The translations under genes were made by a program, and so were the position numbers. 64,000 nucleotides of DNA, taken from IMG/VR virus record IMGVR_UViG_3300010938_000281, positions 22,957 to 86,956 of that record. One strand, written 5' to 3'. Shown here piece after piece: positions 1-53,310 of this stretch. Source of the DNA: a virus. The notes beneath the pieces were generated by a model. The model saw only the letters and a program-made list of their open reading frames with translations. It had not been told where the DNA came from and searched no databases. Each line of letters starts with the position of its first letter. Within the stretch, counting starts at the first letter, position 1.

Positions 1-1
1 G

Positions 2-33197: not shown

Positions 33198-34214
33198 TTA
33201 GTAGCTACCAGCTAGAACACGACGACCATCAAGTACGGCAAAACCGAACTCTCCGCGACCGTAGTATCCATCTTCACCACGACGGTGTAGGTTCACTGTG
33301 TCAGGGAATACACGAATTTCTTCGCGTACCGGCATAATAAAGCTATCACGATTCTTCATATCTACACCAACCACAAGCTCAACGTCACTTGCTTCCAAGT
33401 TACCACCCAACTTGTTTGTGTAGAAGTTCTGATATTCCTGACCATCACCAAATTCACGTAGGGCGTGCATATTAACACCGAATACGCGGGTAATAGCAGG
33501 ACCATCATCTGCCGACACATAAATTTCTCTACGTGTTACGTCATCTACTTGGTCAAGACCCCAACTACGAACGTCTTCAATCGACTCTGGAGATAGGAAC
33601 ATGTCTGTTAGAGCAGACTGACGAATAGACGCTGTGTTACCACCACCGTTACGAACCATAACGGTCTTCATAAGAGAAACAAGTCTCTTTGTAAACTGTC
33701 CGGCTGTAGCATCTGCATCATAGACGCTGATGTTACGGTCGTAAGCGGCAGTTAGAATAACGTGCCATCCATCGTCGTTAATCTTTTTAACAAAACCAGC
33801 TTCCAAAATCTCAATAGCACGAGCTATTACAGGCCAGTTTGCATCACGGGCGAAACGCAAGTTCCATTGAATAGAATTGCTGATTTCGTAAGTAGGAATA
33901 GTAACATAGTCACCTTCTACCTTACGCTCACCAATCTTACCAACACCGGGACTTGTGTAAGCTACGAATTCATCTTCACGACCCGGAGACAAAATGTCCA
34001 GAGGCCATTCAATCTGTCCAGCGCCTTGAGGAACAGCTTGGAAAATGTTGCGAACAACATCGCCAAACAATACACCCTTACGCAAAGGTGTCTCAATAGC
34101 TTTGGCAAGCTGATATTGAGCCTTGAAACGTACTTCAGGATTGTCGTCCGCTGTACCACGAATCAAAGTTAAAAGTTCTTGTGGTGGATTCCACAGATTG
34201 TCACGATAATCCAT
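33198..34214 (-). CDS. Major capsid protein
   Basis: 338 residues, probably HK97 fold. The N-terminal arm is helical and charged. The core has EGDYVTIPTYEISNSIQW (P-domain strand), a spine-helix region around IARAIEILEAGFVKKIND, and the A-domain near LTDMFLSPESIEDVRSW. RBS AAGGAGAC precedes ATG 34214. It follows the decoration protein gene and is isolated by tandem terminators. Confidence 0.85.
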   Translation of the reverse strand: MDYRDNLWNPPQELLTLIRGTADDNPEVRFKAQYQLAKAIETPLRKGVLFGDVVRNIFQAVPQGAGQIEWPLDILSPGREDEFVAYTSPGVGKIGERKVEGDYVTIPTYEISNSIQWNLRFARDANWPVIARAIEILEAGFVKKINDDGWHVILTAAYDRNISVYDADATAGQFTKRLVSLMKTVMVRNGGGNTASIRQSALTDMFLSPESIEDVRSWGLDQVDDVTRREIYVSADDGPAITRVFGVNMHALREFGDGQEYQNFYTNKLGGNLEASDVELVVGVDMKNRDSFIMPVREEIRVFPDTVNLHRRGEDGYYGRGEFGFAVLDGRRVLAGSY

Positions 34215-36274: not shown

Positions 36275-38443
36275 CTAGATTATAGTATTTTCTTCATTAT
36301 CAACACCTATTTCTAAATCATACGCTAGAGCGAATCCGGAAGCTTGAATTTGTCTCATTTCATCTACCGTTGGCTCTCTCTCGTTTTGTTCTTTGAAAGA
36401 TGTCAACAAACCTTTGATACAATAAATAACATCCGCGTTCGGCGTCTTAACAGCGTTAGCTATAGTAAATATCTCTTCTTCTGTAATTTCAACGAAAGGT
36501 TGTAGGTTTGAAAATATAGTTAATTTTGTAGCTTCTAAAGTGTTAAACTCCTCTGTTGTAAGAGAACGAACATTAGGTTTATTAAATTTGTTTTGAAGTA
36601 AAATAGGAGTAATCTTCTCAGATATCACCTCTTGAGCCTTACATCCCCATAGGAATGTGTTTACAAATCCCTTAGTATGTAGCGGAGCCTTCTTTTGTTT
36701 ACGCTTTTTAGAATCTTTCTTACCGCTAGGACGACCGTTTTGACCAATAGGCTTAAATTTAGATTGTTGAATTTTATCATTGTTATTCTTGTTTGCAATT
36801 TCAAGATTCTGTTGATGCTGTTGTTCGTTTGGAGATAGCTCTCCTTCTTTCTTTGGAGCTAGGTCGATTCCCATTTCTGACGGTGCGACACCGCCACGCT
36901 GAAGTAGAATCTTCTTCATATCGTGTTCAAATTGAGGATTATGATATGGGCCGGCCTTTGGTGGCATCTTCTTAGCATCTCTCTTTTCATGTTCTCTAGC
37001 AATCTTTATCTTCTCGATATTAGAGAACATACCAAAATTTTCTAATACAGAATCAAGGCTAATAGCATCTCTATCTAGCAACCCTAATAACAATTGCTTA
37101 TATACAGAGTCATCGCCAAGATTAACTTGGTCAAAAGAAATAAGAGCCTTTTTCTTATAGCCCATAGCCTTTTGAACCATAGCAACTTGTTCGTTCCAGA
37201 AGCCTGTTAAAACTCTTCTACCATACTCAAGACGTTCAACAAATGTTTGCATCTGAATAAAGTTATTAGTCATACCCTTACCAGCACTATCTGATATAAA
37301 AGGTACACCTAAACCCTCATATATACTTGATAGTACGGGTTCGTATTTTGCCTTACCTAAGAACCTATGAATTTCGCTATTGGTTTCTGTAAACTTAATA
37401 TCCGGCCCCCAAACAAGGTCGATAGTACCACCACCAACATTATTAGCTAGAATACTTCTAACTTTGTTAATCATAGCTTTGGTAGGAATAATACTATTTT
37501 GTGGTGTGTCTCCAATATGTCCCAACGTCCACAAACGAACGCTTGAAATAGCACCGTCTAAAGCACTTACGTCGGCCAACTTCATCTTATCTAACATGAT
37601 AAGGTCGTCCATAATAGGAACAATCATAGAGTCGGCCCAAACCTTCCAGTCGTCTTTACGATAGAAGAAAATCTTAATATTTTCATCGTCAAGAGGTATT
37701 ATATTCTGACCTTTTTTAAGAGCAGACAAAATATAGTCGGGGATATATGAAGCCATTTCGTCATCAGAAAATCCCATATACATTTGCCGTACCCGATTAA
37801 GGTCTCCTAGAACTGTACTTGATACTCTTAAAGCATACAGTGGTTTTCCTGTAAATGTTGCTAACTCAGGAGATATAACTTCAAGAGATAGCGGATTGAT
37901 GTAGGTATAACGTAAAGGAATTCTCCTTTTTTCTACCTTAACATCTTGTACTTCTATATTTTTACCCTGAGCCGACATCCATCTCTTTTCTTGTCTAACA
38001 GGAATCTTCCCGTAGGCAATATTAACCGGCACATTTCCAACACGATATAGATAATTTACAAATCTTTCTGAAACAGTGCAACCATCCACATATTCAAACC
38101 ATTCTTTGAAAAATCTTTCTTGTGATGGTACTGGATGTACCAACTTAATCCCTTTACAAACGAAGTCTGACATAAGGTCGATAACATTGCGAACAATACC
38201 AACTTTATCATAAGCTCTCATAGAAAGCTGTATATTTTCATAGTTAGTGCGCACCGAACTTTCATATCTGCGATAGTAATCGTAGTCAGCTCTGGTATAT
38301 TCGCTCTTTACAGAAATGTTATTACCGGCATTAACAAAAGTGCGACCAATATTATAAGCGTCAGCCTTTGTTTTGTATACATAGTCATAAGCATCCACAA
38401 CATCTGGTGGAACCTGGAAGGGTGTCTCTACCTTTATAGCCAT
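36275..38443 (-). CDS. Portal protein
   Basis: 722 residues, starting MAIKVETPFQVPPDVVDAYDY after an AGGA-type RBS. The N-terminal two thirds have the alternating beta/helix layout of portals, with IRNVIDLMSDFVCKGIKLVHP, IRRIPLRYTYINPLSLEVISPEL-like wing sequence and a long helix with LERLEYGRRVLTGFWNEQ-like character. The last ~150 residues are Lys/Gln-rich and probably disordered. It is between terminase and prohead protease, with its own late motif. Confidence 0.8.
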   Translation of the reverse strand: MAIKVETPFQVPPDVVDAYDYVYKTKADAYNIGRTFVNAGNNISVKSEYTRADYDYYRRYESSVRTNYENIQLSMRAYDKVGIVRNVIDLMSDFVCKGIKLVHPVPSQERFFKEWFEYVDGCTVSERFVNYLYRVGNVPVNIAYGKIPVRQEKRWMSAQGKNIEVQDVKVEKRRIPLRYTYINPLSLEVISPELATFTGKPLYALRVSSTVLGDLNRVRQMYMGFSDDEMASYIPDYILSALKKGQNIIPLDDENIKIFFYRKDDWKVWADSMIVPIMDDLIMLDKMKLADVSALDGAISSVRLWTLGHIGDTPQNSIIPTKAMINKVRSILANNVGGGTIDLVWGPDIKFTETNSEIHRFLGKAKYEPVLSSIYEGLGVPFISDSAGKGMTNNFIQMQTFVERLEYGRRVLTGFWNEQVAMVQKAMGYKKKALISFDQVNLGDDSVYKQLLLGLLDRDAISLDSVLENFGMFSNIEKIKIAREHEKRDAKKMPPKAGPYHNPQFEHDMKKILLQRGGVAPSEMGIDLAPKKEGELSPNEQQHQQNLEIANKNNNDKIQQSKFKPIGQNGRPSGKKDSKKRKQKKAPLHTKGFVNTFLWGCKAQEVISEKITPILLQNKFNKPNVRSLTTEEFNTLEATKLTIFSNLQPFVEITEEEIFTIANAVKTPNADVIYCIKGLLTSFKEQNEREPTVDEMRQIQASGFALAYDLEIGVDNEENTII

Positions 38444-38497: not shown

Positions 38498-40519
38498 TTA
38501 TTTATATAAATCCGCCAATCCCTCTATAAGCCACGAAGCTCCGGTATACATTTTTCCACCATTTTCACTATCTTTAACAGGATATCTATTATCAGCAAAT
38601 CCACCATGCTCTGGAACAAGTGTTATATCTTCTCTCATAGCTAATGTTCTAGCCGTCATATTAGCCATAAGTAAAGCGGAATATCTATCTTTACGCATTC
38701 TACCTTTTTTACCAGTGGTAGTCTTAATTTCTGGCGTATCAAATCTTTCGCGACCGCTTATAGATGTAGATGTTACAACAATAGTACATAGTTCATCTTT
38801 CAACTCCTCAATTTCCATAATACACTTTTCTTCGTCGTCTGCTTTATCAAATAAAGATTGACTTATATCTGCCTCTGCTAAAGATATAGCATCGAATAGA
38901 GGAAACAACAATTCTTTTTCTTCCATATCTTTACGCATACCATGATTAGACTGAGATGTAAATTCTTCTTTTGAGAAATTAACCACATCAATTATATGTA
39001 ACCCTTCGTGATAATCCGTATCTTGTTGTTTATTAGGAAGTATAAAAGGCCATAGTTTTATTTCGCCCTGTTTCATAACCTTCTCGTCGTTCATGCCTTC
39101 CAATATAGCTCTACCACCACCATCCTTATCAATAGCAATAGCTGTCATATTAAAATCGCGCATAAGGTCACGAATCTTACGAATACAATATGAGTAATAA
39201 TTAGTTTCTGTTGTTAGTCTATTATTTTTCTTATATTTATAGTCAGCTTCGTTTGTTGTCCAACAATATACAACGCGTCTATGGTTTGGACGTATTTCAA
39301 GAATAACTATAGCAAAATTATCGGTACTCATAGCCGGGTCAATACCCATAATATATTTATAGTCGGGATGTCCGCTTAATATAGGTTTGAACACAGCTTC
39401 TTTAGCTGGAATAATTACATTCTTGATTTTGATATCTTGTTCACTTTTTACAGTACACTTCTCTATAAGAGAGCGTGGATAGAATCCGTTAGAGTCAGAA
39501 CTAAATACAGCACAGTATTCCATCTGATAAATACCGCTATGTACCGTAGCTTTGGCTCTAGCTATGTTGGAATCGTCCATGAAACCTTCTGGAAGAATAT
39601 CTACAGGAATACGCATTACAGAAAAATCCCTATAGTCAAATCCTCTAGGCGGAATTTCATTATTAAATATTTCGTTTAACTTATCTTGATTACCGCGAGA
39701 CTTTATTATTTTTCTATATCTATCGTGATACTTAGAAAAATGCTTAAAAGAGTATCCGGCAGTACCAGACAATACAATTTGGTTCCCAGCACTACCTTCT
39801 TCTTCTTCTGGTATAATCATACCGATTCTTTCGGCTAGTTTCTTTCTAGCTATTCTACCCGCGTTTTCTACAGGAGAGGCGCTTACAGCACCGAAACCAC
39901 CAACTACTGTTTCAAAAACATCAAGGGGGATAGAATCAAACTCGTCGGAAAGAATATCGTTAGCACGAAGACCGCGAATACGACTACCATCACCAAGAGG
40001 AATAGCCCTAATACTACTATCGCCCAATTTTAACTCCCAACCTTCCGGCGCCTTGTTCATATTACCACAGTTAAGAATCAAGTCCTTCATAATCGGAGAT
40101 TCTGATAGAATACTTTCTATGTAGTTAAAAATAATCTTAGCCTGACGAAAACCGGCAGAACATATTAAAATCTTGCGTTTTGGAATAAATAAAGCTCTGA
40201 GTAGAGCATATAGGGCGAGAGAGAACGATTTAGACATACCACGGCTTCCCACCAACATAGGAAACTTATGTGTCCACAATTCTCTTAATATAACGGCTTG
40301 AAATGGGTGTATCTTGATTTTGAATAATACTTTACAAGCCATGTAGAAATAGTCTGGATTAGACATCAACCAAGTAAAATACAACTCTGGTTGTTCTTCC
40401 AATATATCTGGTATCTTCTCAAGCGGATTGTATATCTCTGTTCCGCGCTTAAACACGATGCCTAGATGGGCATCTTCAATCATTTGCTTAAAATACTGTT
40501 CGTCTAATACCGTTTTCAT
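38498..40519 (-). CDS. Terminase large subunit
   Basis: 673 residues. ATPase domain: Walker A-like GSRGMSKS at residues ~91-98 and Walker B with acidic pair in ILSDEFDSIP (~189-198). Nuclease domain: MGIDPAMSTDNFAIVILEI (first Asp) and TAIAIDKDGGGRAILEGM (second Asp), with an insertion holding acidic residues further on. It packages DNA into proheads by ATP hydrolysis and makes the cuts at the ends. It overlaps the ERCC4-type nuclease gene by 32 bases. Confidence 0.93.
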   Translation of the reverse strand: MKTVLDEQYFKQMIEDAHLGIVFKRGTEIYNPLEKIPDILEEQPELYFTWLMSNPDYFYMACKVLFKIKIHPFQAVILRELWTHKFPMLVGSRGMSKSFSLALYALLRALFIPKRKILICSAGFRQAKIIFNYIESILSESPIMKDLILNCGNMNKAPEGWELKLGDSSIRAIPLGDGSRIRGLRANDILSDEFDSIPLDVFETVVGGFGAVSASPVENAGRIARKKLAERIGMIIPEEEEGSAGNQIVLSGTAGYSFKHFSKYHDRYRKIIKSRGNQDKLNEIFNNEIPPRGFDYRDFSVMRIPVDILPEGFMDDSNIARAKATVHSGIYQMEYCAVFSSDSNGFYPRSLIEKCTVKSEQDIKIKNVIIPAKEAVFKPILSGHPDYKYIMGIDPAMSTDNFAIVILEIRPNHRRVVYCWTTNEADYKYKKNNRLTTETNYYSYCIRKIRDLMRDFNMTAIAIDKDGGGRAILEGMNDEKVMKQGEIKLWPFILPNKQQDTDYHEGLHIIDVVNFSKEEFTSQSNHGMRKDMEEKELLFPLFDAISLAEADISQSLFDKADDEEKCIMEIEELKDELCTIVVTSTSISGRERFDTPEIKTTTGKKGRMRKDRYSALLMANMTARTLAMREDITLVPEHGGFADNRYPVKDSENGGKMYTGASWLIEGLADLYK

Positions 40520-40973
40520 CTATCACCTTATCGAATATTTCTAGAGCGCATTGAATTGCTCCATTACGGTCGTTAGCGAATATAACATCTACGTCATATT
40601 CGTTACGAATTCTGTCTATGGAAGATAAAAGATAGTTGGCGCTTATTCTAACCTTGCCTTGTAATCTATACGGTATTCCCGAATCTGTTGGAAATACCGC
40701 AACCTGACTTTCGGAAAACTCTAGTATCAGATATCTATATGGAAAGTTTTTCATTCGTTCCATTTCTTTATAGAACGGAACGTGTTTGGCCCCTATATTT
40801 TGAGCCAGTTCTCCGGTTGATTTCTTTCTCTCTATACATACAACGTCTTCGTATCCTTCGAGTGTATAGTCTCCGGTGTTCATATTCTGAATAATCTGTT
40901 TTGGTCCGTAAAAACCAAACTGCCACGGTATCTTTTCGCTACAATCTTGTATAATAGTATAATCTCTAGTCAT
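40488..40973 (-). CDS. ERCC4-type (XPF-like) nuclease domain protein
   Basis: 161 residues. GDYTLEGYEDVVCIERKKS has the ERCC4 layout: GDY, then E-R-K-x-S as the GDX(n)ERKxxxD-type catalytic core. A later YLILEFSESQV strand and the basic C-terminus fit a small standalone nuclease. It is 4 bases overlapped by the HNH gene and overlaps the terminase start. Possibly acts on branched DNA before packaging; role inferred. Confidence 0.75.
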   Translation of the reverse strand: MTRDYTIIQDCSEKIPWQFGFYGPKQIIQNMNTGDYTLEGYEDVVCIERKKSTGELAQNIGAKHVPFYKEMERMKNFPYRYLILEFSESQVAVFPTDSGIPYRLQGKVRISANYLLSSIDRIRNEYDVDVIFANDRNGAIQCALEIFDKVIDENGIRRTVF

Positions 40974-41245
40974 TTCTTTTTAGCCCTTACTATAGTAAAA
41001 AACATATCGCTATAAAAACGTTCTTTGTTTTTCACAAGTTTGTGATGTTTAGTACATAAGGATATACCATTACCAACACTATATCTCAACTCCCAACTAT
41101 CAGCCCATCTAATAATATGATGTACCTGTAGTTTTTTCTTCCTTCTACATCCAGGATATTGACATTTATGACCGTCTCTACTAAGTACAGCGGCTCTAAA
41201 TTCTTTATATCTATCATCCTTAAAGTTACGCCCTACCATAATCAT
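40970..41245 (-). CDS. Small HNH endonuclease
   Basis: 91 residues (or 89 from a second ATG): RDGHKCQYPGCRRKKKLQVHHI gives the first Cys pair and HH, then GISLCTKHHKL completes the HNH with C and H. HNH proteins beside terminase are common in phages with cohesive ends and aid terminase cleavage; a selfish origin is the alternative. Overlaps the cupin gene end by 20 bases. Confidence 0.8.
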   Translation of the reverse strand: MIMVGRNFKDDRYKEFRAAVLSRDGHKCQYPGCRRKKKLQVHHIIRWADSWELRYSVGNGISLCTKHHKLVKNKERFYSDMFFTIVRAKKK

Positions 41246-41573
41246 CTTCGATTCTTATAATATCGTTCTCATCACATATTCCAACTTGCGTTTCAAATAT
41301 TCTAAGTATTTGTGTATCACTTAGATTTTCTATTCTATGTTTCTTTAATCTTGGAACGTATACTGTATTAGAAGGGTAAATAAACGACTCTGTTTCTCCG
41401 AGGGTTAACTTGCCGCACCCATACTCCATTCCCCACCACTCATCTCTTTTCTCGTGGTATTGTAAGGAAAGTTTTTGTTTTGGTCCAAGAACAATTCTCT
41501 TAATAACCATAGTACCCGAACGGTAGATGTCTACATAAAAGCCCCAAGGTTTATCGACCTGCTTTGATGTCAT
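41226..41573 (-). CDS. ManC/mannose-6-phosphate isomerase type II-like cupin
   Basis: 115 residues from ATG 41573. The whole protein matches the C-terminal isomerase domain of bifunctional ManC enzymes: KPWGFYVDIYRSG, IVLGPKQKLSLQYHEKRDEWW (metal-binding His/Glu region), VYVPRLKKHRIENLSD, and the ending IRIEDDYGR. It may interconvert fructose- and mannose-6-phosphate to feed GDP-mannose synthesis. No GDP-mannose pyrophosphorylase is in the window, so the host enzyme may supply that step. It overlaps the GMD gene end by 23 bases. Confidence 0.8.
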   Translation of the reverse strand: MTSKQVDKPWGFYVDIYRSGTMVIKRIVLGPKQKLSLQYHEKRDEWWGMEYGCGKLTLGETESFIYPSNTVYVPRLKKHRIENLSDTQILRIFETQVGICDENDIIRIEDDYGRA

Positions 41574-42678
41574 TGTATACCATCTCCTCGATAAGTTCAT
41601 CGAATGTAACTGTTGGTTTCCACCCCAACTTAGCTCTAATCATAGAAGAATCGCCAAGCAAATAATCAACCTCCGCCGGACGATAATACGCTTGATTTAT
41701 AGCAACATATTGCTCATAATCTAAACCAATATGACTAAAAGCTTTTTGACAAAACTCTCTAACGGTATGAGTTTCCATTGTAGATACAACGTAGTCTCTT
41801 AGATTGTCTTGTTGCAACGAGAGCCAACAAGCTGTAGCTACATCTTTAGCGTGCCCCCAATCCCTTTTAGCGTCCAAATTTCCAAGATGCAAATATGATT
41901 CCTTACATCTTATAGGTCTACTAAATTTCGTATCAGTCTTTGACTCCATCGGCAGACTCGTAAATCTTGAAAGAGTATAGGTGTCGCCGCCCCACCTAGC
42001 CAACTTGCCGACATGATTCGTAATCTTACGAGTAACAAACTCTTTGCCTCGTCTTGGACTTTCAAAATTAAAGTTTATATTTGAACAACATTTTAATCCA
42101 TATGCTTCGCGGTACAATCTAACCAAATGGTATCCTGCTAATTTAGCAATACCGTATGGTGACTGTGGACAAAACTGAGTTGTTTCATCTTGAAATAATG
42201 AATGCTCAAGAGACATACCTTTAGCATCTAATGTTTCATATCTAATTGGTAGCCCTTGAAATTTATCAATATAGCTTGCGGCACGACCAAACATTTCCGA
42301 GGTAGACATTGTAATAAACTTAGAGTTTAACTTAAGCTGTTTAACTCCCTCTAGGAAGTTTAGAACACCTAAAGTATCAACACTAAATGTGTATCCGGGT
42401 TCGGTAAATGATACATGTACAAACGATTGAGCGGCACAATTGTAAATTTCGTCCGGTCTATATTTACTTAACAATCCAAACACGCAAGACGCGTCTGTTA
42501 TATCTCCACAAGCCAATTCAAGGTCTTCGTTGTTAATAACAGAAGCTAAATTATCCATATTAAGATTAGCATTTCTGCGGTAAACCCCAACAACCCTATA
42601 CTTTTTACTTAAAAGCAACTCAACTAAATAGCTGCCAAGTTGACCATTAACACCAGTAACTAAAGCTAGTTTACTCAT
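41551..42678 (-). CDS. gmd: GDP-mannose 4,6-dehydratase
   Basis: 375 residues, an extended SDR enzyme making GDP-4-keto-6-deoxymannose from GDP-mannose with bound NADP. TGVNGQLGSYLVELL is the nucleotide-binding start; YRRNAN follows. CAAQSFVHVSF, MSTSEMFG (Ser/Thr and Glu of the active site) and SPYGIAKLAGYH (YxxxK) are diagnostic of GMD. Late-region LGWKPTVTFDELIEEM is the usual end. It sits at the top of the late block, four genes before the terminase in transcription, while its partner fcl is in the other operon at 1441-2376. Confidence 0.93.
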   Translation of the reverse strand: MSKLALVTGVNGQLGSYLVELLLSKKYRVVGVYRRNANLNMDNLASVINNEDLELACGDITDASCVFGLLSKYRPDEIYNCAAQSFVHVSFTEPGYTFSVDTLGVLNFLEGVKQLKLNSKFITMSTSEMFGRAASYIDKFQGLPIRYETLDAKGMSLEHSLFQDETTQFCPQSPYGIAKLAGYHLVRLYREAYGLKCCSNINFNFESPRRGKEFVTRKITNHVGKLARWGGDTYTLSRFTSLPMESKTDTKFSRPIRCKESYLHLGNLDAKRDWGHAKDVATACWLSLQQDNLRDYVVSTMETHTVREFCQKAFSHIGLDYEQYVAINQAYYRPAEVDYLLGDSSMIRAKLGWKPTVTFDELIEEMVYNDIKAGR

Positions 42679-42687: not shown

Positions 42688-43479
42688 TTATAAATTATCC
42701 TCTTTTATATTATCACTGTTAAGTACAGGTTGCTCAACAGTTCCATCTACATACTGATGGTAGTCCGACAATCTCTCATACTCTGCATTCATAGCAATTC
42801 TAAATTTCTCTATTTCAATACCTAAACTTTTACGAACATCTGGATTGGTTATCAAAGAAGCAACCCAGTCTTTTAATGTCTCCTTTGACTCCTCAAATCT
42901 CTTTTTTCTTTCGGCACGAGTAGCCTTCATCTCCCTTAACATACTCTGCTTACGTTCCATCAACGTCTGGTTTTCTTTCTGAAAATTAGATATAGCAATA
43001 AAACAGTTGGTAATATCTTCGTTTAGTTTACCAATAGCAATATAATCTTTAGGGTCTTTAGCTTTCTCATCTTTAAGCTGCTGTTGCAGTGTCTCTATAA
43101 GCTCTTGACTAAAATACATTCTCTTCAAAACCCTATTGATTAGAATTTCGGTACGAATTGTATCCATAACCTGTAACCGTTCAGTATGTGTAATGTCCTG
43201 TTTGAACTGATTTATAATCTCTCGCCAGTGATATAGAAATGTTTCTTGCTCATCTTCGCTTAACTGTTGTGTAATCTGTTTCCATTCATGAGTTCTTTTG
43301 ATATTCATTTCCATCTGACGTATTTCGTCAGGAATATGTAACTCACCGACCATCTCTGCAATTTTACTCGTTGGTCTGTTTATATGTTCACTCAGCTCAT
43401 CAATACTCATAGACTTATGATTATCGTTAATAAACTGTATCTCTTCTTTGCTCCATCTTCCAGTCTTATAGTGTTTCAT
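42688..43479 (-). CDS. HTH/SANT-like protein, possible terminase small subunit
   Basis: 263 residues. Residues ~1-55 hold a SANT/Myb-like HTH (RWSKEEIQFINDNHKSMSIDELSEHI). The rest is almost all helix with long Lys/Glu/Gln coiled coil. DNA-binding head plus oligomerising helices near the terminase fits a small terminase; a structural regulator is the alternative. Overlaps the sigma factor gene by 14 bases. Confidence 0.5.
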   Translation of the reverse strand: MKHYKTGRWSKEEIQFINDNHKSMSIDELSEHINRPTSKIAEMVGELHIPDEIRQMEMNIKRTHEWKQITQQLSEDEQETFLYHWREIINQFKQDITHTERLQVMDTIRTEILINRVLKRMYFSQELIETLQQQLKDEKAKDPKDYIAIGKLNEDITNCFIAISNFQKENQTLMERKQSMLREMKATRAERKKRFEESKETLKDWVASLITNPDVRKSLGIEIEKFRIAMNAEYERLSDYHQYVDGTVEQPVLNSDNIKEDNL

Positions 43480-43918
43480 TTACTATCTTTCGTATCTCTT
43501 CGATTATTTTTAGTTTGCGCATTTTTGGAATTTGAATGCCGTGGCGTAATTTCAAATAATCCTTACGAAGCGAGGCTGGCAGCTTTTCATCTATCATTTC
43601 CCAGAACTCATTAGATGTAGTCTGATTATTACCAATAGTTTCATACTCATCTTGTATATTATCTAAGCTACAAGTATCAAGTTCCCTATTGGTAAATTTT
43701 CTAATTACATTTTTTATTCTATTACCAACCGATACAGAAAGAAAATTAAGTATACAACCTGATTCTGGTTTATACTTTTTCATAACTTCTAAACCAATAA
43801 TATATGCTTCTTGAGCTAAATCATCCCCGTCTGCAAATTTATAGTTATACTTCTTTTTTATTCTCTGCATTATCTGCTGTATCGCTTCGAGAAACTCCGT
43901 CTCGTTGTACTTGCTCAT
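43466..43918 (-). CDS. Minimal sigma-70-family RNA polymerase sigma factor
   Basis: 150 residues. FADGDDLAQEAYIIGLEVMK and KYKPESGCILNFLSVSVGNRI form a clear region 2 (core binding and -10 recognition). The C-terminal ~40 residues (PASLRKDYLKLRHGIQIPKM) could be a reduced region 4. The layout recalls T4 gp55, which directs host polymerase to late promoters that lack a -35 box. It is positioned at the head of the late block and is a natural partner for the GTGTA late motif. Confidence 0.8.
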   Translation of the reverse strand: MSKYNETEFLEAIQQIMQRIKKKYNYKFADGDDLAQEAYIIGLEVMKKYKPESGCILNFLSVSVGNRIKNVIRKFTNRELDTCSLDNIQDEYETIGNNQTTSNEFWEMIDEKLPASLRKDYLKLRHGIQIPKMRKLKIIEEIRKIVNETL

Positions 43919-44085: not shown

Positions 44086-44736
44086 ATGAAAATCGTACTA
44101 TTATCCGATTTGCACGGATTTTTACCAGAAATAGATAAAAACGGCATAGATTATATGTTCTTATGCGGAGATATTTGTCCAGACTACATTATACCCCAAC
44201 AGTGGTATTGGTACGACGAATACTTTGTACCGTGGTTAAACGAGTGTCCACCGACAATGTTTATACCTGGAAACCACGACTTTCTATTTGAAAGACGTAT
44301 TCCAGAAGAAGATACGTTTGTACAAAATGGACTACATAGACTACCAGACGGTCAAGTTGTTTACGCTTTCGGTTATACAATTTGTCCACGTTGGGCTTTC
44401 CATAAAACCGACGAACAAATAAAATCGCTCTTGACAAAGACGGACGATTTTGATATGATGGTATCTCATAATCCACCCGTTGGAATCTGCGATAGGGCTA
44501 GACCTAGTTTCCACCATAGCGGTTCCACATCTATAAGAGAATTGGTTGATAGAGCAAAGCCCAGAGTTCACATCTTTGGTCACATACACGAAGGGTATGG
44601 TTCAAAGTACGTCGGAGATACTCTCTTTATTAACTGTGCTTTTAGGGATGAAGCTGGAAAACCTAGAAAGCAGTATCTGGTGTTGGACACTGATGATTTG
44701 AGTATTGATGTATTACCATGTAAGGAGTTTGTATGA
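44086..44736 (+). CDS. Calcineurin-like metallophosphoesterase
   Basis: 216 residues with all five motifs of the family: LSDLHG near residue 7, CGDIC near 28, GNHDF near 63, VSHNPP near 126 and FGHIHEGYG near 164. Two-metal phosphodiesterase or phosphatase; substrate unknown (nucleic acid, cyclic dinucleotide or phosphoprotein are all possible). RBS AAGGCGAG. Its stop overlaps the start of the AAA+ gene (ATGA), tying the two together. Confidence 0.85.
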   Translation: MKIVLLSDLHGFLPEIDKNGIDYMFLCGDICPDYIIPQQWYWYDEYFVPWLNECPPTMFIPGNHDFLFERRIPEEDTFVQNGLHRLPDGQVVYAFGYTICPRWAFHKTDEQIKSLLTKTDDFDMMVSHNPPVGICDRARPSFHHSGSTSIRELVDRAKPRVHIFGHIHEGYGSKYVGDTLFINCAFRDEAGKPRKQYLVLDTDDLSIDVLPCKEFV

Positions 44737-46154
44737 TTAGTGATAGTAAACTTGATTTCTACGTTCAAAACAACCTAAACGTCCTTCTTATAGGACGACA
44801 CGGTACTGGCAAAACCAGCAGGGTAAAGAAGTGCTTTGAGAGGCATAATCTCAAGGCGCTTTATTTTTCTGTTTCTACAATGGACCCCTGGGTTGACTTT
44901 GTTGGTATCCCCAAAGAAGTAACCGATGAAAAGGGTATTACATACCTAGACCTTATACGTCCAAAAGCGTTCGCATACGACCAAGTTGAAGCTATTTTTC
45001 TTGACGAATACAATCGCGGCTCCGAAAAGGTTCGTAATGCTACACTTGAACTAATCCAATATAGGTCTATCAACGGTAAGAAATTTAACAACCTTCGTTT
45101 TGTTTGGGCTGCTATTAACCCGGATGATGATATTAACTGTTACGACGTTCAGAAATTAGACCTCGCCCAAAAAGATAGATTTCATATCCATATTGATATT
45201 CCTTATGAACTTGATATGGATTACTTTGCGGATAAATATGGTACACAGGTCGCAAATCGAGTACAAGATTGGTGGAACGACCTTGCTGAAAATATTAAAT
45301 CTATTGTTTCTCCTCGTAGAGTAGACTATGCCCTTGAAGTATATTTGCATATGAACGGCGACCTTAAAGATGTTCTTCCTGTAGCCGCTAATGTTGCACA
45401 TCTTGCAAACGTACTTGAAAAAGATTCTGTTAAGGTCCGCTTAGAATCTATTATGAAAAGCGGTAATGCTAAGTTAGCAGAACCAATTCTAAAGAACGAT
45501 ACCGAATATCAAGAAGCCATTAAGTGGATTCTACTAGATAAGGCCCGTTGCAATTTCTTCCTACCAATCATCAACCATGAGAAATATCGCGCGCTAGTCG
45601 CAGAACATATCAATAACGAGAATATATTGAAGAATATCGCGTCCCCTTTTGATATAAGTCCATCAATTCGTAAGATTCTTCTGGATTGTCATAAAAACAA
45701 CGAATTTAAGAACTCTGTACTTGAAGCTATTCCAGAAGCTACTTCAGATAATTTTAGTAAGAATGTTAGGTCTGTTCAGATTTTTAATCCACAGAAAGGT
45801 TGCAATCCCGGATTCTTTGATAAAATCAACGAGTTTAGTTCTATAGATACCAGCATTCACGAACGTAAGGAAATGATGAAATGGATTATGGAAAACATCG
45901 GCACTACTACAAAGGGTAAAAACGGTGATGCTGTAACAACTATGATGTTTATTGGAAAACAGATGTATAAGACAGTTGATAAAAAGGTTTTATTGAAAGA
46001 ATTTCCCGATATGATTCCGGTATTAAACTGCTGTCTTAAAACAATTGATGGTGGTATTGATATCCGTAAAGATAAAAGATTTAAGTTACTTGGTAAGGCT
46101 ATTGTTCGTCTTGGTGTAGAAGACCTTGTTTGGACTCCTGGTTGCGAGGAATAG
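44733..46154 (+). CDS. MoxR-type AAA+ ATPase
   Basis: 473 residues. Walker A LIGRHGTGKTSRV at residues ~18-30; WVDFVGIPKEV after it; Walker B IFLDEYNRG near residue 90; sensor 1 in FVWAAINPDDD (~125) and the arginine-rich KLDLAQKDRFHI segment. The remaining half is helical. MoxR-type ATPases act with VWA-domain proteins as metal-dependent chaperones. Coupled to the phosphoesterase upstream and, one base after its stop, the VWA gene. Confidence 0.85.
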   Translation: MISDSKLDFYVQNNLNVLLIGRHGTGKTSRVKKCFERHNLKALYFSVSTMDPWVDFVGIPKEVTDEKGITYLDLIRPKAFAYDQVEAIFLDEYNRGSEKVRNATLELIQYRSINGKKFNNLRFVWAAINPDDDINCYDVQKLDLAQKDRFHIHIDIPYELDMDYFADKYGTQVANRVQDWWNDLAENIKSIVSPRRVDYALEVYLHMNGDLKDVLPVAANVAHLANVLEKDSVKVRLESIMKSGNAKLAEPILKNDTEYQEAIKWILLDKARCNFFLPIINHEKYRALVAEHINNENILKNIASPFDISPSIRKILLDCHKNNEFKNSVLEAIPEATSDNFSKNVRSVQIFNPQKGCNPGFFDKINEFSSIDTSIHERKEMMKWIMENIGTTTKGKNGDAVTTMMFIGKQMYKTVDKKVLLKEFPDMIPVLNCCLKTIDGGIDIRKDKRFKLLGKAIVRLGVEDLVWTPGCEE

Positions 46155-46155
46155 T

Positions 46156-47370
46156 ATGGACAATAAGCTTAGACAAGCATTACATACGCTAGAATGTTAT
46201 AATGGTATTTTTAGGCAGCTATGGGAACTTGGTAGAATTCATTTTACCGAGAGCGTTCCTACGGCGTGTATTCGTTTTGATAAAGAAGGAAATGGGCTAC
46301 AATTCTGCTTTAATCCTAAACTATACGAACAAATGTCTAATTATGAGGTGGCTTTCGTTATAGCTCATGAGTGTATGCACGTTATGCTTTATCATGGTAG
46401 AAGATTTGTTAAAAGGCCGGATTATAAATCTCGACATGAGGTATGGAACATAGCTGCTGATATAGCTATTCATGAAATTCTATTTGGAGAATTTGGATTT
46501 GATAGAAGCCTTATCACTACTATTGAGCCATGCACTGTAGACGGTGTATTTAAGGATAGTAAGAGTTTTATTCGGCGTGGTGAAACTACAGAGTATTATT
46601 TTGACAAGCTACATAAAGAGGGTAAAGTAAAATACGTTTCTTTTGACGAACATGATTTTGATGATGCTTTTGCCAACGCCGCTGATTCTGCTATGCAAAA
46701 AGCTTATCGTAGGCTAACAGAGATAGAGAAAAAAGAACTACAGCGTAAAGTTGGACAAAAAGTAGAAGACAAAGAAAAACGTAAAAATGATAATAATGTA
46801 GGTACTGGGGCTGGTATCACCGTATACGATGCCTTAATTCATGAACTGCCCAAAAAGAAATGGGAGCTTATTATTAAAGAATGGGCACAAGCATTTCTTA
46901 AAACTGACAAGTATGATTGGACAAGACGAGATAGAAGAATTTCTCATCTACCTAAAGATATGTTTCTACCTGGAAGCCTAGAACAACATTATAAGAAACA
47001 AAAGCTGTGGATGTTCTTAGATACGTCTGGTAGTTGTATTGATTTAGCTCCTAGATTTTTAAGCGCTGCCGCATCACTTCCCCCTAAATTCTTCGATGTG
47101 AGAGTATTTTGTTTTGATACTAAAATATACGAAATAGATATTCGTAAACAAGAAGTATTAGGAGGCGGCGGTACTTCGTTTGATATTATTGAGGAATATA
47201 TTCGTAAGCAACCAGATAATCCAGACTGTGTATTCGTTACCACTGACGGTTATGGTAACGATGTATTTCCTGCCGAACCTAAAAAATGGCACGTATTTCT
47301 TACATCTGATAATAGAAAGAACTTTCCTAAACAATGTAACTTTCACTCGTTTAAGGAGGGGTTTGAGTGA
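46156..47370 (+). CDS. VWA-like/DUF2201-type metallopeptidase-like protein
   Basis: 404 residues from ATG 46156 (RBS GAGGAA). The N-terminal half has VAFVIAHECMHVMLYHG, a zincin-type HExxH (HECMH) with a further conserved NIAADIAIHEIL helix. The C-terminal ~140 residues are VWA-like: KLWMFLDTSGSC (MIDAS-type D-T-S-G-S), GGGGTSFDIIEEYI and FVTTDGYGND. The pair with MoxR is a known bacterial and phage arrangement. It may remodel or cleave a host protein; target unknown. Confidence 0.8.
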   Translation: MDNKLRQALHTLECYNGIFRQLWELGRIHFTESVPTACIRFDKEGNGLQFCFNPKLYEQMSNYEVAFVIAHECMHVMLYHGRRFVKRPDYKSRHEVWNIAADIAIHEILFGEFGFDRSLITTIEPCTVDGVFKDSKSFIRRGETTEYYFDKLHKEGKVKYVSFDEHDFDDAFANAADSAMQKAYRRLTEIEKKELQRKVGQKVEDKEKRKNDNNVGTGAGITVYDALIHELPKKKWELIIKEWAQAFLKTDKYDWTRRDRRISHLPKDMFLPGSLEQHYKKQKLWMFLDTSGSCIDLAPRFLSAAASLPPKFFDVRVFCFDTKIYEIDIRKQEVLGGGGTSFDIIEEYIRKQPDNPDCVFVTTDGYGNDVFPAEPKKWHVFLTSDNRKNFPKQCNFHSFKEGFE

Positions 47371-49296: not shown

Positions 49297-49460
49297 GACA
49301 ATATATGTGGGAACCGGACGCTTGTGGCCTATGTTGATAGTGTGAGTGTTACATTCTGATATTTGGTCCCGGTTTTGCCTCGACCACCTGTCGATTTTCG
49401 AGCCTGCACGCCGGTACACATACTGAACAAAAAACCCCACCCGGCAGTCGCCCCGATGAC

Positions 49461-49490
49461 GTAAACCCTTACACGCCAAGGGGTTACGCC
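49461..49490 (+). repeat. Intergenic S element, single copy (S1)
   Basis: GTAAACCCTTACACGCC then AAGGGGTTACGCC; matches the ~30-bp consensus YAAACCCTTACAC-N3-AA-N5-TTAC in plus orientation, 100 bases before a promoter. From 49297 to 49656 this repeat and the promoter are the only features I see. Confidence 0.7.
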
Positions 49491-49591
49491 CACCACATCA
49501 AAACTTTCGTGCCCGGCATGGTCAATCTTTTAGCATGACATTTGCTCATAATAAATTATCTCAGAATTTTATAAAATTGTTCAAGACGGCC

Positions 49592-49619
49592 TTGACTCCA
49601 CGCCGATACTTGGTATAAT
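49592..49619 (+). promoter_or_regulatory. Sigma-70 promoter
   Basis: TTGACT, 16-base spacer, TATAAT, upstream of the acidic protein gene at 49657. Confidence 0.85.
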
Positions 49620-49656
49620 GCACACATCGGACAGCCAACCCTCAACGGAGACGACC

Positions 49657-49902
49657 ATGAGCCAGTTCAATGAATTCGACGCCGAACTTGAAGCGGAACG
49701 TGCCTTCGGGATGACGGGGTATGACTACGCGGATTATAACGATTACCTTGATGGTGACGACCTCGCGAACTACAACGCTAACGAAGCGGATGATTACCGC
49801 GATGAGGGTATGGATGATTTCGACCCGTCCGAATATGAGGCGTCCGACGAAGCCGACATGTACGGCGGATGGGATGATGACGGTGGGCGGTATGATGAGT
49901 AA
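49657..49902 (+). CDS. Highly acidic small protein
   Basis: 81 residues from ATG 49657 with RBS GGAG seven bases upstream. About half of the residues are Asp, Glu or Tyr (YDYADYNDYLDGDDLANYN), with almost no hydrophobic core. Such proteins in early regions often mimic DNA to block host nucleases or regulators; this is an inference from composition. First gene of the GC-richer region, with its own strong promoter. Confidence 0.65.
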   Translation: MSQFNEFDAELEAERAFGMTGYDYADYNDYLDGDDLANYNANEADDYRDEGMDDFDPSEYEASDEADMYGGWDDDGGRYDE

Positions 49903-49982
49903 CGCTTGACGCGGCGGCGTCTAAAGTCCGCGTCGGGGTTTGCGGTCATCCTGACATATAAAACCGCTTATTATACACCTAA

Positions 49983-50036
49983 CTGCGGTGAAGCAACGTA
50001 TAAAGCTCTGTTGCTCAATGTGCGTCCGGCCCGCAG
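49983..50036 (+). other. Candidate small structured RNA (R1)
   Basis: CTGCGG at 49983 pairs with CCGCAG at 50031, enclosing a hairpin AGCAAC...GTTGCT whose loop holds AAAGCTCT. Shares AAGCTCTGT followed by ATGTG with the element at 51379. Located in the 3' region of the acidic gene transcript. Confidence 0.35.
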
Positions 50037-50055
50037 CCTTGACTACCGAACGCAA

Positions 50056-50130
50056 CCTCTTACGGTGTAACGGGTTAGCGTATCGGGAGGACTTCCGATA
50101 GCGTAAAGCCTTACAGCATATAGACTTACA
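50056..50130 (+). repeat. Intergenic S element, inverted pair (S2)
   Basis: A minus-orientation copy (50056-50080) and a plus copy (50101-50130) flank TATCGG-GAGGACTT-CCGATA, making one large imperfect palindrome. Confidence 0.75.
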
Positions 50131-50260
50131 TCACATTTCCACTATTGAAAAATACATACCTCTTTCCCGTTCAGCAAGTAACGTACCGCTATTCATTTGG
50201 CATACGCTTTGCTCTATTATTTATTTCTTTTTTATTTTTCTTTTTTCTATGATATTGTGA

Positions 50261-50288
50261 TTGACAATCCGAACCATGACGATATAAT
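50261..50288 (+). promoter_or_regulatory. Sigma-70 promoter
   Basis: TTGACA, 16-base spacer, TATAAT; both boxes are consensus. Upstream of the 50331 gene. Confidence 0.85.
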
Positions 50289-50330
50289 ACACGCATGGAA
50301 ACGACAAACGCCCAAACCGGAGAGAAGAAA

Positions 50331-50471
50331 ATGCTGCAAGACATGGATTATGTTTGCGACAACATGGACAAAATCAATGAAGCAATTCGTGAGGCCGACG
50401 CTGAAATTCAACCGGTTCTCGACCTCTGCACGGTTCTGGAATGGTACGGTATCGAAATCCTATACGAATAA
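50331..50471 (+). CDS. Small hypothetical protein
   Basis: 46 residues from ATG 50331, preceded by GGAGAGAAG. Acidic and helical (DNMDKINEAIREADAEI). An in-frame ATG at 50295 is possible but has no RBS. Directly behind a consensus promoter, so a real early gene; function unknown. Confidence 0.55.
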   Translation: MLQDMDYVCDNMDKINEAIREADAEIQPVLDLCTVLEWYGIEILYE

Positions 50472-50584
50472 TTCGCACAATCCGATATCCGGCGGATAAA
50501 TCCGGTTTTGGGAGTTTCGGCGGTAAGTTGTACCTTGTAATTAAAACTGCCGCACATGTTTATTTTACTTCTCAGGATTTCACA

Positions 50585-50665
50585 ATGTATGGTTTGTTTC
50601 TTATCACCCTTTTCGTCGTCGCATCTATTATTGGATACCTGACGGAAAAGCAAGTATCGGAATGA
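50585..50665 (+). CDS. Tiny membrane protein
   Basis: 26 residues from ATG 50585 (AGGA upstream): MYGLFLITLFVVASIIGYL is one transmembrane helix with a charged C-terminus. Its stop overlaps the next start. Confidence 0.5.
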   Translation: MYGLFLITLFVVASIIGYLTEKQVSE

Positions 50666-50784
50666 ACATGGATATCATCGACAAAATTCTTGTGACGATT
50701 ATCGGATTTGTTGTAATCAACATCCTGATTTGTCTGTTTACGGCATGGGATATTCTGTCGATATACGCTCGCTTTAGCATGTGA
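50662..50784 (+). CDS. Small membrane protein
   Basis: 40 residues with one long hydrophobic helix (ILVTIIGFVVINILICLF). Coupled by ATGA overlap to the 26-residue membrane protein; the two may form a complex in the host membrane. Confidence 0.55.
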   Translation: MNMDIIDKILVTIIGFVVINILICLFTAWDILSIYARFSM

Positions 50785-50796
50785 AATGCGTTGCGA

Positions 50797-50824
50797 TAAA
50801 GCCTTACGGTGTAAGGACTTAGCG
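50797..50824 (-). repeat. Intergenic S element, single copy, minus orientation (S3)
   Basis: Minus-strand CTAAGTCCTTACACCGTAA and on; one half of the usual pair. Confidence 0.6.
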
Positions 50825-50850
50825 TATCCGAAGCATGGTTGACCGATGGT

Positions 50851-50961
50851 ATGATTGCATCAGAAGCGAGATTCTATCTGTCATTCTACAGTATGAATAC
50901 GCCAGAAAATGTTTCCGCCGTCGTCGAATTCTTCAAGAATTACCTTGACAGTCTCCGATAA
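50851..50961 (+). CDS. Possible small protein
   Basis: 36 residues (MIASEARFYLSFYSMNTPEN and on to KNYLDSLR) running through the -35 box of the next promoter. No clear RBS; an overlapping 37-codon frame from 50834 is an alternative. Tentative. Confidence 0.35.
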   Translation: MIASEARFYLSFYSMNTPENVSAVVEFFKNYLDSLR

Positions 50962-50973
50962 CTATGGTATAAT
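50945..50973 (+). promoter_or_regulatory. Sigma-70 promoter
   Basis: TTGACA, 17-base spacer, TATAAT; about 30 bases before the 51003 gene. Confidence 0.85.
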
Positions 50974-51002
50974 CTGGAAATGACAAACAGGGGAGAAATG
51001 AA

Positions 51003-51179
51003 ATGAGATTCCTAATTTATACCGATGGCACTTTCCGATGCGTCTTTCAAGGAAGCAATTGCCTTGACATTGTTGCGGAATACTGCAAGAATAACTTTCC
51101 CGGCGAAACCGCCGTTGTGAAGTATCTTGATACAAATGGTAAACTCACTTCCAAGGTTATTTATCGGGGGCAGCAATGA
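51003..51179 (+). CDS. Small hypothetical protein
   Basis: 58 residues from ATG 51003 behind GGGGAG. MRFLIYTDGTFRCVFQGSN suggests a small beta domain. Stop overlaps the next start (ATGA). First gene of a two-gene unit with its own promoter. Confidence 0.6.
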   Translation: MRFLIYTDGTFRCVFQGSNCLDIVAEYCKNNFPGETAVVKYLDTNGKLTSKVIYRGQQ

Positions 51180-51352
51180 ATCAAGCAAGCCAGTATTCGA
51201 CAATCGGCTATATCATGGACTATGGTAACCTGGTCAAGGTAGTGATTCTGCGACACGACGGTAAGAACGTTATTGTGCGTCGTCTGGGCGAATTCAATAA
51301 GGTGATTGTATTGAATGCGAATGAGGTGTTTGAACGCGACTTGGCCGAATAG
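51176..51352 (+). CDS. Small hypothetical protein, coupled
   Basis: 58 residues (MNQASQYSTIGYIMDYGNLV and on), a basic beta-rich small domain of unknown function. Overlaps the previous gene by 4 bases. Confidence 0.6.
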   Translation: MNQASQYSTIGYIMDYGNLVKVVILRHDGKNVIVRRLGEFNKVIVLNANEVFERDLAE

Positions 51353-51378
51353 GCTATATGGGCTGACGCCGGTTAGCG

Positions 51379-51441
51379 GCGCATGTCCGTACACTTAAGC
51401 TCTGTACGGATGTGTAGCAGGCGCGATTCCCGCCGATGCGC
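51379..51441 (+). other. Candidate small structured RNA (R2)
   Basis: GCGCAT pairs with ATGCGC, enclosing an 8-bp hairpin (TCCGTACA/TGTACGGA, loop CTTAAGCTC) and a second hairpin GGCG-CGATTCC-CGCC. Shares AAGCTCTGT...ATGTG with R1. It has a tRNA-like look, but there is no D arm and the anticodon-like loop has nine bases. Confidence 0.4.
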
Positions 51442-51501
51442 TTTGTTACATCCGCTCTTTGCGGATATCACGCGCAAACCCGCACCCCCGCGAAAATACT
51501 T
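51442..51501 (+). repeat. Two-block T element (T1)
   Basis: TTTGTTACATCC, 34 bases, then CCGCGAAAATACTT. Weakest of the four copies at the second block. It sits 12 bases before a small gene's start. Confidence 0.5.
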
Positions 51502-51512
51502 AGGGAGATAAA

Positions 51513-51650
51513 ATGATATTCTCACAGTCTATTCCGACAATTGAGGGATGGATAGGTGCGATGATTTTTCCCCGATATTCTAAACCCTTACAGCACAACA
51601 ACTTACGCCAATATTTCAAAATCTCACAATTTTACCGATTACACGCTTGA
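51513..51650 (+). CDS. Possible small protein overlapping an S element and a promoter
   Basis: 45 residues from ATG 51513 with a strong RBS (AGGGAGATAAA). The second half is the translation of S4 and the following promoter region, so the functional part may be only the first ~25 residues (MIFSQSIPTIEGWIGAMIF). Confidence 0.4.
   Translation: MIFSQSIPTIEGWIGAMIFPRYSKPLQHNNLRQYFKISQFYRLHA
51580..51609 (+). repeat. Intergenic S element, single copy (S4)
   Basis: CTAAACCCTTACAGCACAA then CAACTTACGCC; 38 bases upstream of the next -35 box. Confidence 0.7.
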
Positions 51651-51675
51651 CTCACGGTCGATAAGGTGTTATAAT
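51647..51675 (+). promoter_or_regulatory. Sigma-70 promoter
   Basis: TTGACT, 17-base spacer, TATAAT; start of the 51.7-52.7 kb operon. Confidence 0.85.
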
Positions 51676-51732
51676 CGGCCCATCACAGCAACCTACTCAA
51701 CGTTGAAAAGCGTGGGCGTGGGCCGTATAGGT

Positions 51733-51846
51733 ATGGAGTTAGGTCTTGAGAGTTGGCGGTGGTTGTGGAATACGCTTTGTGTTGATTCGCGGCCTGTTCA
51801 AGAGTTGATTCAGGTATTGGAAGATGAAGGTCTTATCTTGGAGTAG
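51733..51846 (+). CDS. Small hypothetical protein
   Basis: 37 residues, MELGLESWRWLWNTLCVDSR and on, helical. No strong RBS; a GTG start a few codons upstream is possible. Followed after 2 bases by the next gene, whose RBS lies in its 3' end. Confidence 0.45.
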   Translation: MELGLESWRWLWNTLCVDSRPVQELIQVLEDEGLILE

Positions 51847-51848
51847 CA

Positions 51849-52061
51849 ATGAAATTTCTAGCTCTCGGTATCTGTTACGAAGACGGAACCAACAATTCCC
51901 TTGAAGTTAATTTCATCGACCCGCAACTTACTTCTGATGCACTGCGTAAAAAGTTTAAGTATCCTGAATCGTTCAAATGGGACAGGATATTCCTGATTCG
52001 CAATGATATAGAAAGTCCGTCTGTGGTCTGCAACTGGGAGCTTGCCAAGGATTTCTCATAA
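51849..52061 (+). CDS. Small hypothetical protein
   Basis: 70 residues with RBS TTGGAG. MKFLALGICYEDGTNNSLEV leads a small alpha/beta domain. Family not recognised. Confidence 0.6.
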   Translation: MKFLALGICYEDGTNNSLEVNFIDPQLTSDALRKKFKYPESFKWDRIFLIRNDIESPSVVCNWELAKDFS

Positions 52062-52242
52062 TTACTGTACCGGAGAAAAAACAATATTCAACGACGAGGA
52101 TGATTTCTACGTCGATGAGGAACAAATCGAGGTTGATGAAATGTTGGGCGATTTTGATGAGCATGACGAACCTCTAGATGACGAACTTGATTTCATCGAA
52201 GATGAAGAGTTCGATGATGATTTCGACGATTCGGATTACTAA
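52042..52242 (+). CDS. Highly acidic small protein, start uncertain
   Basis: Up to 66 residues from TTG 52042, overlapping the previous gene by 20 bases. The C-terminal 45 are dominated by Asp and Glu (DEPLDDELDFIEDEEFDDD). A good RBS (CGGAG) at ~52072 has no ATG/GTG/TTG after it in frame, so the true start is unclear. Like the 49657 product, possibly a DNA mimic. Confidence 0.5.
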   Translation: MPRISHNYCTGEKTIFNDEDDFYVDEEQIEVDEMLGDFDEHDEPLDDELDFIEDEEFDDDFDDSDY

Positions 52243-52266
52243 TTCCTCCAACCGAAAGAGTTTCGT

Positions 52267-52452
52267 ATGATTCGCCTATTCCGCAAAAATACTACTTCGC
52301 TTCTCACAATCAAACTGTCCGATGTAGGTGCGACATTTGATATGTCAGACGCCGCAATTCAGGCACATGTGAACGCGATGTACTTTGGATGGGTGGTTAT
52401 GATGATTGAACAGGGAAACGAAATTCGTACTTTTGAAGGAATTTTTGAATGA
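52267..52452 (+). CDS. Small hypothetical protein
   Basis: 61 residues, MIRLFRKNTTSLLTIKLSDV and on, with a weak GAAAGAG RBS. Stop overlaps the next start. Confidence 0.55.
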   Translation: MIRLFRKNTTSLLTIKLSDVGATFDMSDAAIQAHVNAMYFGWVVMMIEQGNEIRTFEGIFE

Positions 52453-52532
52453 TTTGCTTAGCGTTGGGTTTAGGAATTAGTATAGTCCTCTATATCATAG
52501 GGCGAGCAATTTTCGATGACATAAACTTTTGA
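52449..52532 (+). CDS. Tiny membrane protein
   Basis: 27 residues with one hydrophobic helix (ICLALGLGISIVLYIIG). ATGA overlap with the preceding gene. One of several tiny single-helix membrane proteins in this region. Confidence 0.5.
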   Translation: MICLALGLGISIVLYIIGRAIFDDINF

Positions 52533-52542
52533 AAGGGTTAAC

Positions 52543-52740
52543 ATGATTCAGGAATGCACTTGTGAGGATTTTGTTCGTGTGGTTTATCAGGGCGGAAAGT
52601 CCCCGGAATACCTTGGAACCGTGCAAGAATGCGGTCCCAAACAAATTCTGGTTAAGCTGTCAAAACCCGACGCTAAGGGTAAGGTTCAATACCGCAATTT
52701 CACGCGGTCTAACATCACACAACTAGAAAAACTGTCGTGA
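52543..52740 (+). CDS. Small basic hypothetical protein
   Basis: 65 residues with RBS AAAGGG. CTCEDFVRVVYQGGKSPEYL and ILVKLSKPDAKGKVQYRNF look like a small beta-barrel (SH3-like) domain. Function unknown. Confidence 0.55.
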   Translation: MIQECTCEDFVRVVYQGGKSPEYLGTVQECGPKQILVKLSKPDAKGKVQYRNFTRSNITQLEKLS

Positions 52741-52949: not shown

Positions 52950-52985
52950 ATCAATGTGCAGACGGTGCGGCGATTCGGAATATGG

Positions 52986-53067: not shown

Positions 53068-53172
53068 TATACACCAAGATTGAAACGACATAACCTTTTA
53101 TCTCCTCACGCTTTAGTGTTTTTCTGACAAGCCGTCTCAAGTTTGTTTCACTAATTAGCCGATATTCACTGT

Positions 53173-53301: not shown

Positions 53302-53310
53302 GGAATAGGC

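Follow-up and report, generated by a model that had tools for sequence, protein, structure and literature searches.

The window, that is, the whole stretch of 64,000 nucleotides analysed here, covers bases 22957-86956 of the 90,511-base linear IMG/VR record IMGVR_UViG_3300010938_000281. This record, whose first base falls inside a helicase-like gene, may be incomplete. The minus strand carries a packaging operon that runs, from position 43918 down, through a sigma-70 region 2-like gene, p263, gmd, a cupin gene, HNH, an ERCC4 nuclease gene, TerL, a portal-like gene and the capsid genes. On the plus strand, the end of a glycan cluster is found at the start of the window. The features are (window coordinates):

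43466-43918, minus strand: operon gene 1, sigma-70 region 2-like protein, 150 aa (Pfam Sigma70_r2, E=0.0014; 18.8 bits, below the cut-off of 24)
42688-43479, minus strand: p263, a helical protein with an HTH-like N-terminus and a coiled coil (PHROG D5-like regulator, E=3e-5)
41551-42678, minus strand: gmd, predicted GDP-mannose 4,6-dehydratase, 375 aa (PF16363, GDP_Man_Dehyd, E=2e-100)
41226-41573, minus strand: predicted standalone type II mannose-6-phosphate isomerase (MPI) cupin, 115 aa (PF01050, MannoseP_isomer, E=9e-19)
40970-41245, minus strand: HNH endonuclease (PF13391/PF01844; PHROG HNH, E=1e-14)
40488-40973, minus strand: ERCC4-type nuclease (PF02732, E=4e-6; phrog_3490, E=2e-10)
38498-40519, minus strand: TerL, terminase large subunit (phrog_2, E=2.5e-26)
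36275-38443, minus strand: putative portal, so named from its position alone (relatives keep it after TerL; no family match in Pfam or PHROG)
33198-34214, minus strand: major capsid protein (22% identity to the Bacillus phage G major head protein)
1-604, plus strand: GT11 fucosyltransferase, the gene starting 134 bases before the window (L006:3823-4560; PF01531, E=4e-21 for the full gene)
589-1431, plus strand: GT10 fucosyltransferase (PF00852, E=5e-9)
1441-2376, plus strand: fcl, divergent GDP-L-fucose synthase (NF047922, E=3.5e-35)

The layout described in the initial annotation is thus confirmed: gmd and the cupin gene lie between p263 and the HNH/ERCC4/TerL genes, and fcl is on the other strand, some 39-41 kb away. 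In relatives, p263 is kept immediately upstream of gmd, and the weakly matching sigma-70 region 2-like gene is kept upstream of p263. The AlphaFold model of p263 (pLDDT 82) gave no match to the PDB at E<=0.001, and no TerS family was matched among the PHROGs; p263 is a possible candidate for the small terminase. A promoter scan returned no excess of sites over shuffled sequence (33 vs 36). Terminator-like sites exceeded the shuffles (13 vs 6), and the strongest is situated directly 3' of the capsid gene.

Several other elements were observed in the record. Adjoining the packaging operon, a divergent operon (window 44086-47370, plus strand) encodes a calcineurin-like phosphoesterase, an AAA ATPase and a DUF2201 metallopeptidase-like protein. 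A GC-richer region (window 49451-58758) contains imperfect repeats, both direct and inverted (TTACGGTGTAA...GTATCGGGAG type), scattered between short genes, as well as recurring promoter-like starts (TGACA...TATAAT...CATC). To the left of the window, the DNA polymerase III alpha gene (record bases L005:5226-8356 and L005:12000-14279) is broken at two sites by intein-like sequences with Hint/Intein_splicing matches, and its frame is spread over several ORFs.

For the gmd product, TIGR01472 is the top NCBIfam model (314 bits, below the 415-bit cut-off), the match being interrupted by two inserts. The eleven top solved-structure matches are all GMDs, and the motifs STSEMFG, SPYxxAK, RRGxxFVTRKIT, RDWGHAKD and RPAEVDYLLG are conserved. 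The catalytic S127 region (S/T-S-E, with E128), Y175 and K179 are present in all 18 aligned lineage GMDs, where the RRG.FVTRKIT and RDWG.A.D signatures are also retained. In the structural model of the window GMD (pTM 0.82), the two inserts appear as low-confidence segments (~131-157 and ~231-259). They are placed after STSEMFG and after FVTRKIT, and their lengths differ strongly between relatives. The gene is under purifying selection, with dN/dS values of 0.06-0.13 (Nei-Gojobori, closest pairs). Pairwise GMD distances follow those of TerL (r=0.90) and of the capsid protein (r=0.88), correlations that are only descriptive since the pairs are not independent. On this evidence gmd can be predicted with confidence to encode a working GDP-mannose 4,6-dehydratase, and it is evidently inherited vertically, co-diverging with TerL. 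A second gmd near fcl outside the window, which would have spoken against the reading of the initial annotation, is absent from the whole 90.5-kb linear, possibly incomplete record.

The neighboring cupin gene is open from 41600 (124 aa). However, the second ATG at 41573, with GGAG upstream and a 23 nt overlap with gmd, is the likelier start and gives 115 aa. The protein corresponds to positions 348-467 of the 467 positions in GMP_PMI/ManC, shows the motifs QxH..RxE.W, H-R and EDxYxR within its PF01050 match, and shares 42% of its residues with the monofunctional type II MPI from cyanophage S-SCSM1. A complete bifunctional ManC (GMP/PMI) is ruled out by the length of at most 124 aa and by the absence of the PF00483 nucleotidyltransferase from the entire record. 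The earlier label of a ManC-type cupin is thus justified for the PF01050 isomerase domain, but not for ManC itself, as the nucleotidyltransferase half is missing and the cupin is read as a standalone isomerase domain. In the window phage it probably tops up mannose-6-phosphate from fructose-6-phosphate. Given that no PF00483 is present, phosphomannomutase and GDP-mannose pyrophosphorylase are probably supplied by the host, unless the divergent nucleotidyltransferase-like gene L006:2535-3218, a relative of which matches PF12804, acts as GDP-mannose pyrophosphorylase. Of the loci that were read, just the window and L008 have a cupin in the gmd slot, and the cupin is thus a local addition. Another PF01050-type cupin is encoded in the relative G002 (L108:19187-19687, minus strand), away from its glycan cluster.

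The lineage was defined via the capsid and terminase proteins and comprises uncultured, mostly marine phages. A search of IMG/VR with the major capsid protein gave 234 relatives, and the loci of the best 80 of these (at 58-72%) were read. Single-sequence scans of viral contigs with gmd and TerL gave no matches; these were obtained by the capsid-protein and profile scans. When p263 and TerL were both visible, a locus was considered evaluable. In the capsid-protein sample gmd was found between these two genes at 19 of 21 evaluable loci, and in a second sample, drawn by TerL profile and thus blind to gmd, at 37 of 37. Pooled, this amounts to 56 of 58 loci and 44 of 46 clusters (grouped at 90% TerL nucleotide identity), with the conserved order p263-gmd-HNH(-ERCC4)-TerL. 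The question raised by the initial annotation, whether gmd moves with the terminase in relatives, can therefore be answered positively, and what it had described as gmd and cupin in the packaging operon holds for gmd as near-constant occupant of this slot, but not for the cupin as a fixed member. Judged by gene order, gmd can be firmly regarded as an almost invariable component of the packaging operon in a widespread uncultured phage lineage. In L014 and L016 the slot contains small unrelated ORFs instead, and since these clusters do without gmd there, the gene is not essential to packaging. A GMD-profile scan assigned 78 of its 80 best viral matches to this lineage, with the operon genes next to them, although the scan is biased to the lineage and the count is not usable as a frequency; the other two loci have fcl right next to gmd, both genes in the same orientation.

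Some members of the lineage show further peculiarities. Two TerL proteins (L011:2305-5634, 1109 aa, and L015:2532-5681, 1049 aa) contain LAGLIDADG and Hint/intein-splicing domains, which are missing from the TerL of the window. In L032, an ornithine cyclodeaminase/mu-crystallin family gene (67-1014) lies upstream of HNH, and p263 and gmd were not seen there. The contigs L115 and L114 occur in MAGs labelled SAR202 and Flavobacteriales; these labels conflict, and binning errors may be involved. Among 50,697 phage records, Bacillus phage G is the only, distant, match of the major capsid protein (22-24%), and TerL reaches only ~24-26% with phage G and Slash/Staley-type phages. The window phage is too distant to be placed in either group.

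The glycan cluster of the window record lies on the plus strand and follows the replication genes. It begins with GT532, GT369, GT334, a methyltransferase, two unknowns and GT2, followed by the nucleotidyltransferase-like gene, one unknown, GT11, GT10 and fcl. For the window Fcl, NF047922 is the best model (122 bits vs a cut-off of 500) and human GDP-L-fucose synthase the best solved-structure match. Alignment with the human enzyme and with relatives shows that the active-site positions S-x-C, Y-x3-K and H are kept (LSVCCYG, YAYSK and RAHF). The fcl products of relatives score 284-304 bits to GDP-L-fucose synthase (three tested) and are 59-69% identical among themselves, whereas the window Fcl shares only 24-27% identity with them, as if another gene had taken over the position. 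The order GT532-GT369-GT334-GT2-nucleotidyltransferase-like-fcl is repeated in three relatives (G003, G004 and G005), and also in as much of G002 as can be seen; GT532 is present there too. Overall, GT532 was found in eight of the nine records of at least 90 kb, far from gmd and on the opposite strand in 8/8. Similarly, wherever both genes were mapped in a lineage record, fcl and gmd lie on opposite strands, even in seven loci with fcl just 2-4 kb upstream. The proposed split of the pathway over two gene blocks on opposite strands is accordingly kept across relatives. The glycan cluster of G002 also contains a second GMD-like gene (L109:5847-6821, minus strand).

How far a fucose product extends was compared in seventeen lineage records. 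An fcl was detected in seven; the other ten are gmd-positive and gave no Fcl match, four of them being long (107, 122, 155 and 175 kb). GT10 and/or GT11 occur in four of the seven fcl-positive vs none of the ten fcl-negative records, a pattern that is an association and not a set of independent events, because phylogeny is shared and records may be fragments. Within the lineage, gmd is the most constant gene, then GT532, then fcl with the fucosyltransferases. The ten gmd-bearing records without fcl imply that fucose cannot be the conserved product, and on the same ground we rejected the idea that all members strictly share a gmd-fcl function. It follows that fcl, on which the initial annotation had built its pathway, does not account in general for the position of gmd, as many relatives keep the gmd slot without detectable fcl or fucosyltransferases. 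The fucose reading would hold for one branch only, the window's included, and the conserved step appears to be GDP-mannose dehydration rather than fucose synthesis.

These records also bear on the lineage-wide alternative that the conserved GMD leads to another GDP-6-deoxyhexose, with fucose as a branch-specific add-on. Such a product could be GDP-D-rhamnose (via a bifunctional GMD or a host reductase) or GDP-perosamine (via a DegT aminotransferase). DegT aminotransferases are indeed found in some records, and the GMD of chlorovirus PBCV-1 yields GDP-D-rhamnose as well (PMC5408694), in line with the ten records without an Fcl match, four of which reach 107-175 kb. However, some records may lack part of the genome, Fcl could come from the host, and the window's own record has fcl together with two fucosyltransferase families. 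This alternative is quite plausible, at somewhat less than an even chance, and it does not conflict with the best explanation as far as the branch of the window is concerned.

According to that explanation, GMD is made late and supplies a glycan pathway of the phage, whose most likely role is virion glycosylation; we hold this model to be slightly better than an even bet. Judging by the operon structure, GMD would be produced together with the terminase, portal and capsid proteins and would convert host GDP-mannose to GDP-4-keto-6-deoxymannose. In the window branch, the phage Fcl from the opposite-strand cluster would then convert this intermediate to GDP-L-fucose. As suggested by family and co-occurrence, GT10 and GT11 would put the fucose on a glycan made by the other glycosyltransferases of the cluster, the most likely acceptor being a virion protein. 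A virion acceptor is favoured because the near-constant gmd is tied to head-assembly and packaging genes, and also because chloroviruses combine a viral GMD and GMER with fucose in their capsid glycans. We infer the late timing from gene order only, and likewise infer that gmd is co-transcribed with the packaging genes, which product arises in vivo and what the acceptor is. The split and distant arrangement does not itself fix the timing, as the PBCV-1 hyaluronan genes are located ~240 kb apart in opposite orientation and are all expressed early (PMC5408694).

Alternatively, the phage could use the same enzymes during infection to alter a glycan on the surface of its host (LPS, capsule or exopolysaccharide), which might, for instance, prevent superinfection or help release. 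The many glycosyltransferases, the methyltransferase and the nucleotidyltransferase-like gene do resemble a surface polysaccharide cluster. Yet this would leave unexplained why it is gmd alone that keeps a place among the packaging genes in 44/46 clusters, and the position of the glycan cluster after the replication genes also speaks against it; we consider this role less likely, with perhaps one chance in four. The location of gmd among terminase and nuclease genes would also suit a deoxyhexose placed on the phage DNA, aiding packaging or evading restriction. This is very improbable, as no base-modifying enzyme was seen among the annotated genes (part of the gene set was scanned) and the transferases found (GT10, GT11, GT2 and GT1/GT4) are of saccharide/protein glycosylation types. 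Finally, that gmd is passing cargo which landed between packaging genes by chance, as the neighboring cupin with its slot only in the window and L008 exemplifies, is scarcely credible, and chance insertion was rejected in view of the slot conservation in independent clusters, the purifying selection (dN/dS) and the co-divergence with TerL and the capsid protein (distance correlations).

The genes and their arrangement can be compared with known systems. Cyanophage S-SCSM1 (Kyanoviridae) encodes a GMD, a GDP-L-fucose synthase, fucosyltransferases, further glycosyltransferases and a monofunctional type II MPI cupin (PMC9602691), the GMD being ~41% and the cupin 42% identical to those of the window. 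In S-SCSM1, gmd directly neighbors fcl, both genes being in the same orientation, and MPI is located three genes upstream, all within one metabolic cluster; gmd and fcl are also neighbors in cyanophage DSL-LC03. The window lineage, in contrast, has gmd in the terminase operon and fcl on the other strand. The GMD and GMER of PBCV-1 were shown in vitro to convert GDP-mannose to GDP-L-fucose, and the glycans of its major capsid protein contain fucose (PMC5408694). PBCV-1 thus shares with the window phage a virus-encoded pathway from GDP-mannose to GDP-L-fucose, but it is a eukaryotic virus of ~331 kb whose GMD makes a second product, and no gmd-terminase linkage is described in that paper. A description of a phage gmd tied to the terminase was not found in the open-licence literature (subscription journals lying outside this search). 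Cyanophages are already known to carry GDP-fucose pathways and standalone type II MPI genes; the difference lies in the near-fixed gmd inside the terminase operon combined with a strand-separated glycan cluster.

More broadly, and tentatively, since we rate this extension below even odds, deoxyhexose supply may form part of the assembly programme of the lineage. GMD would then be a hallmark of its terminase operon and be paired with the conserved glycosyltransferase cluster of the opposite strand, virion glycosylation would be near-universal, and the sugar would switch between fucose and other 6-deoxyhexoses with the turnover of fcl and transferases. Sugar genes of phages are usually seen as optional cargo, whereas here gmd is about as constant as its neighbors in the packaging operon. 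Its seat in that operon, with the matching sugar-transfer genes distant and on the opposite strand, suggests that the addition of a deoxy-sugar is a built-in late step in the making of these viruses. Phage self-glycosylation thereby becomes testable as a core trait, and the p263-gmd-HNH-TerL order offers a gene marker for finding phages of this lineage.
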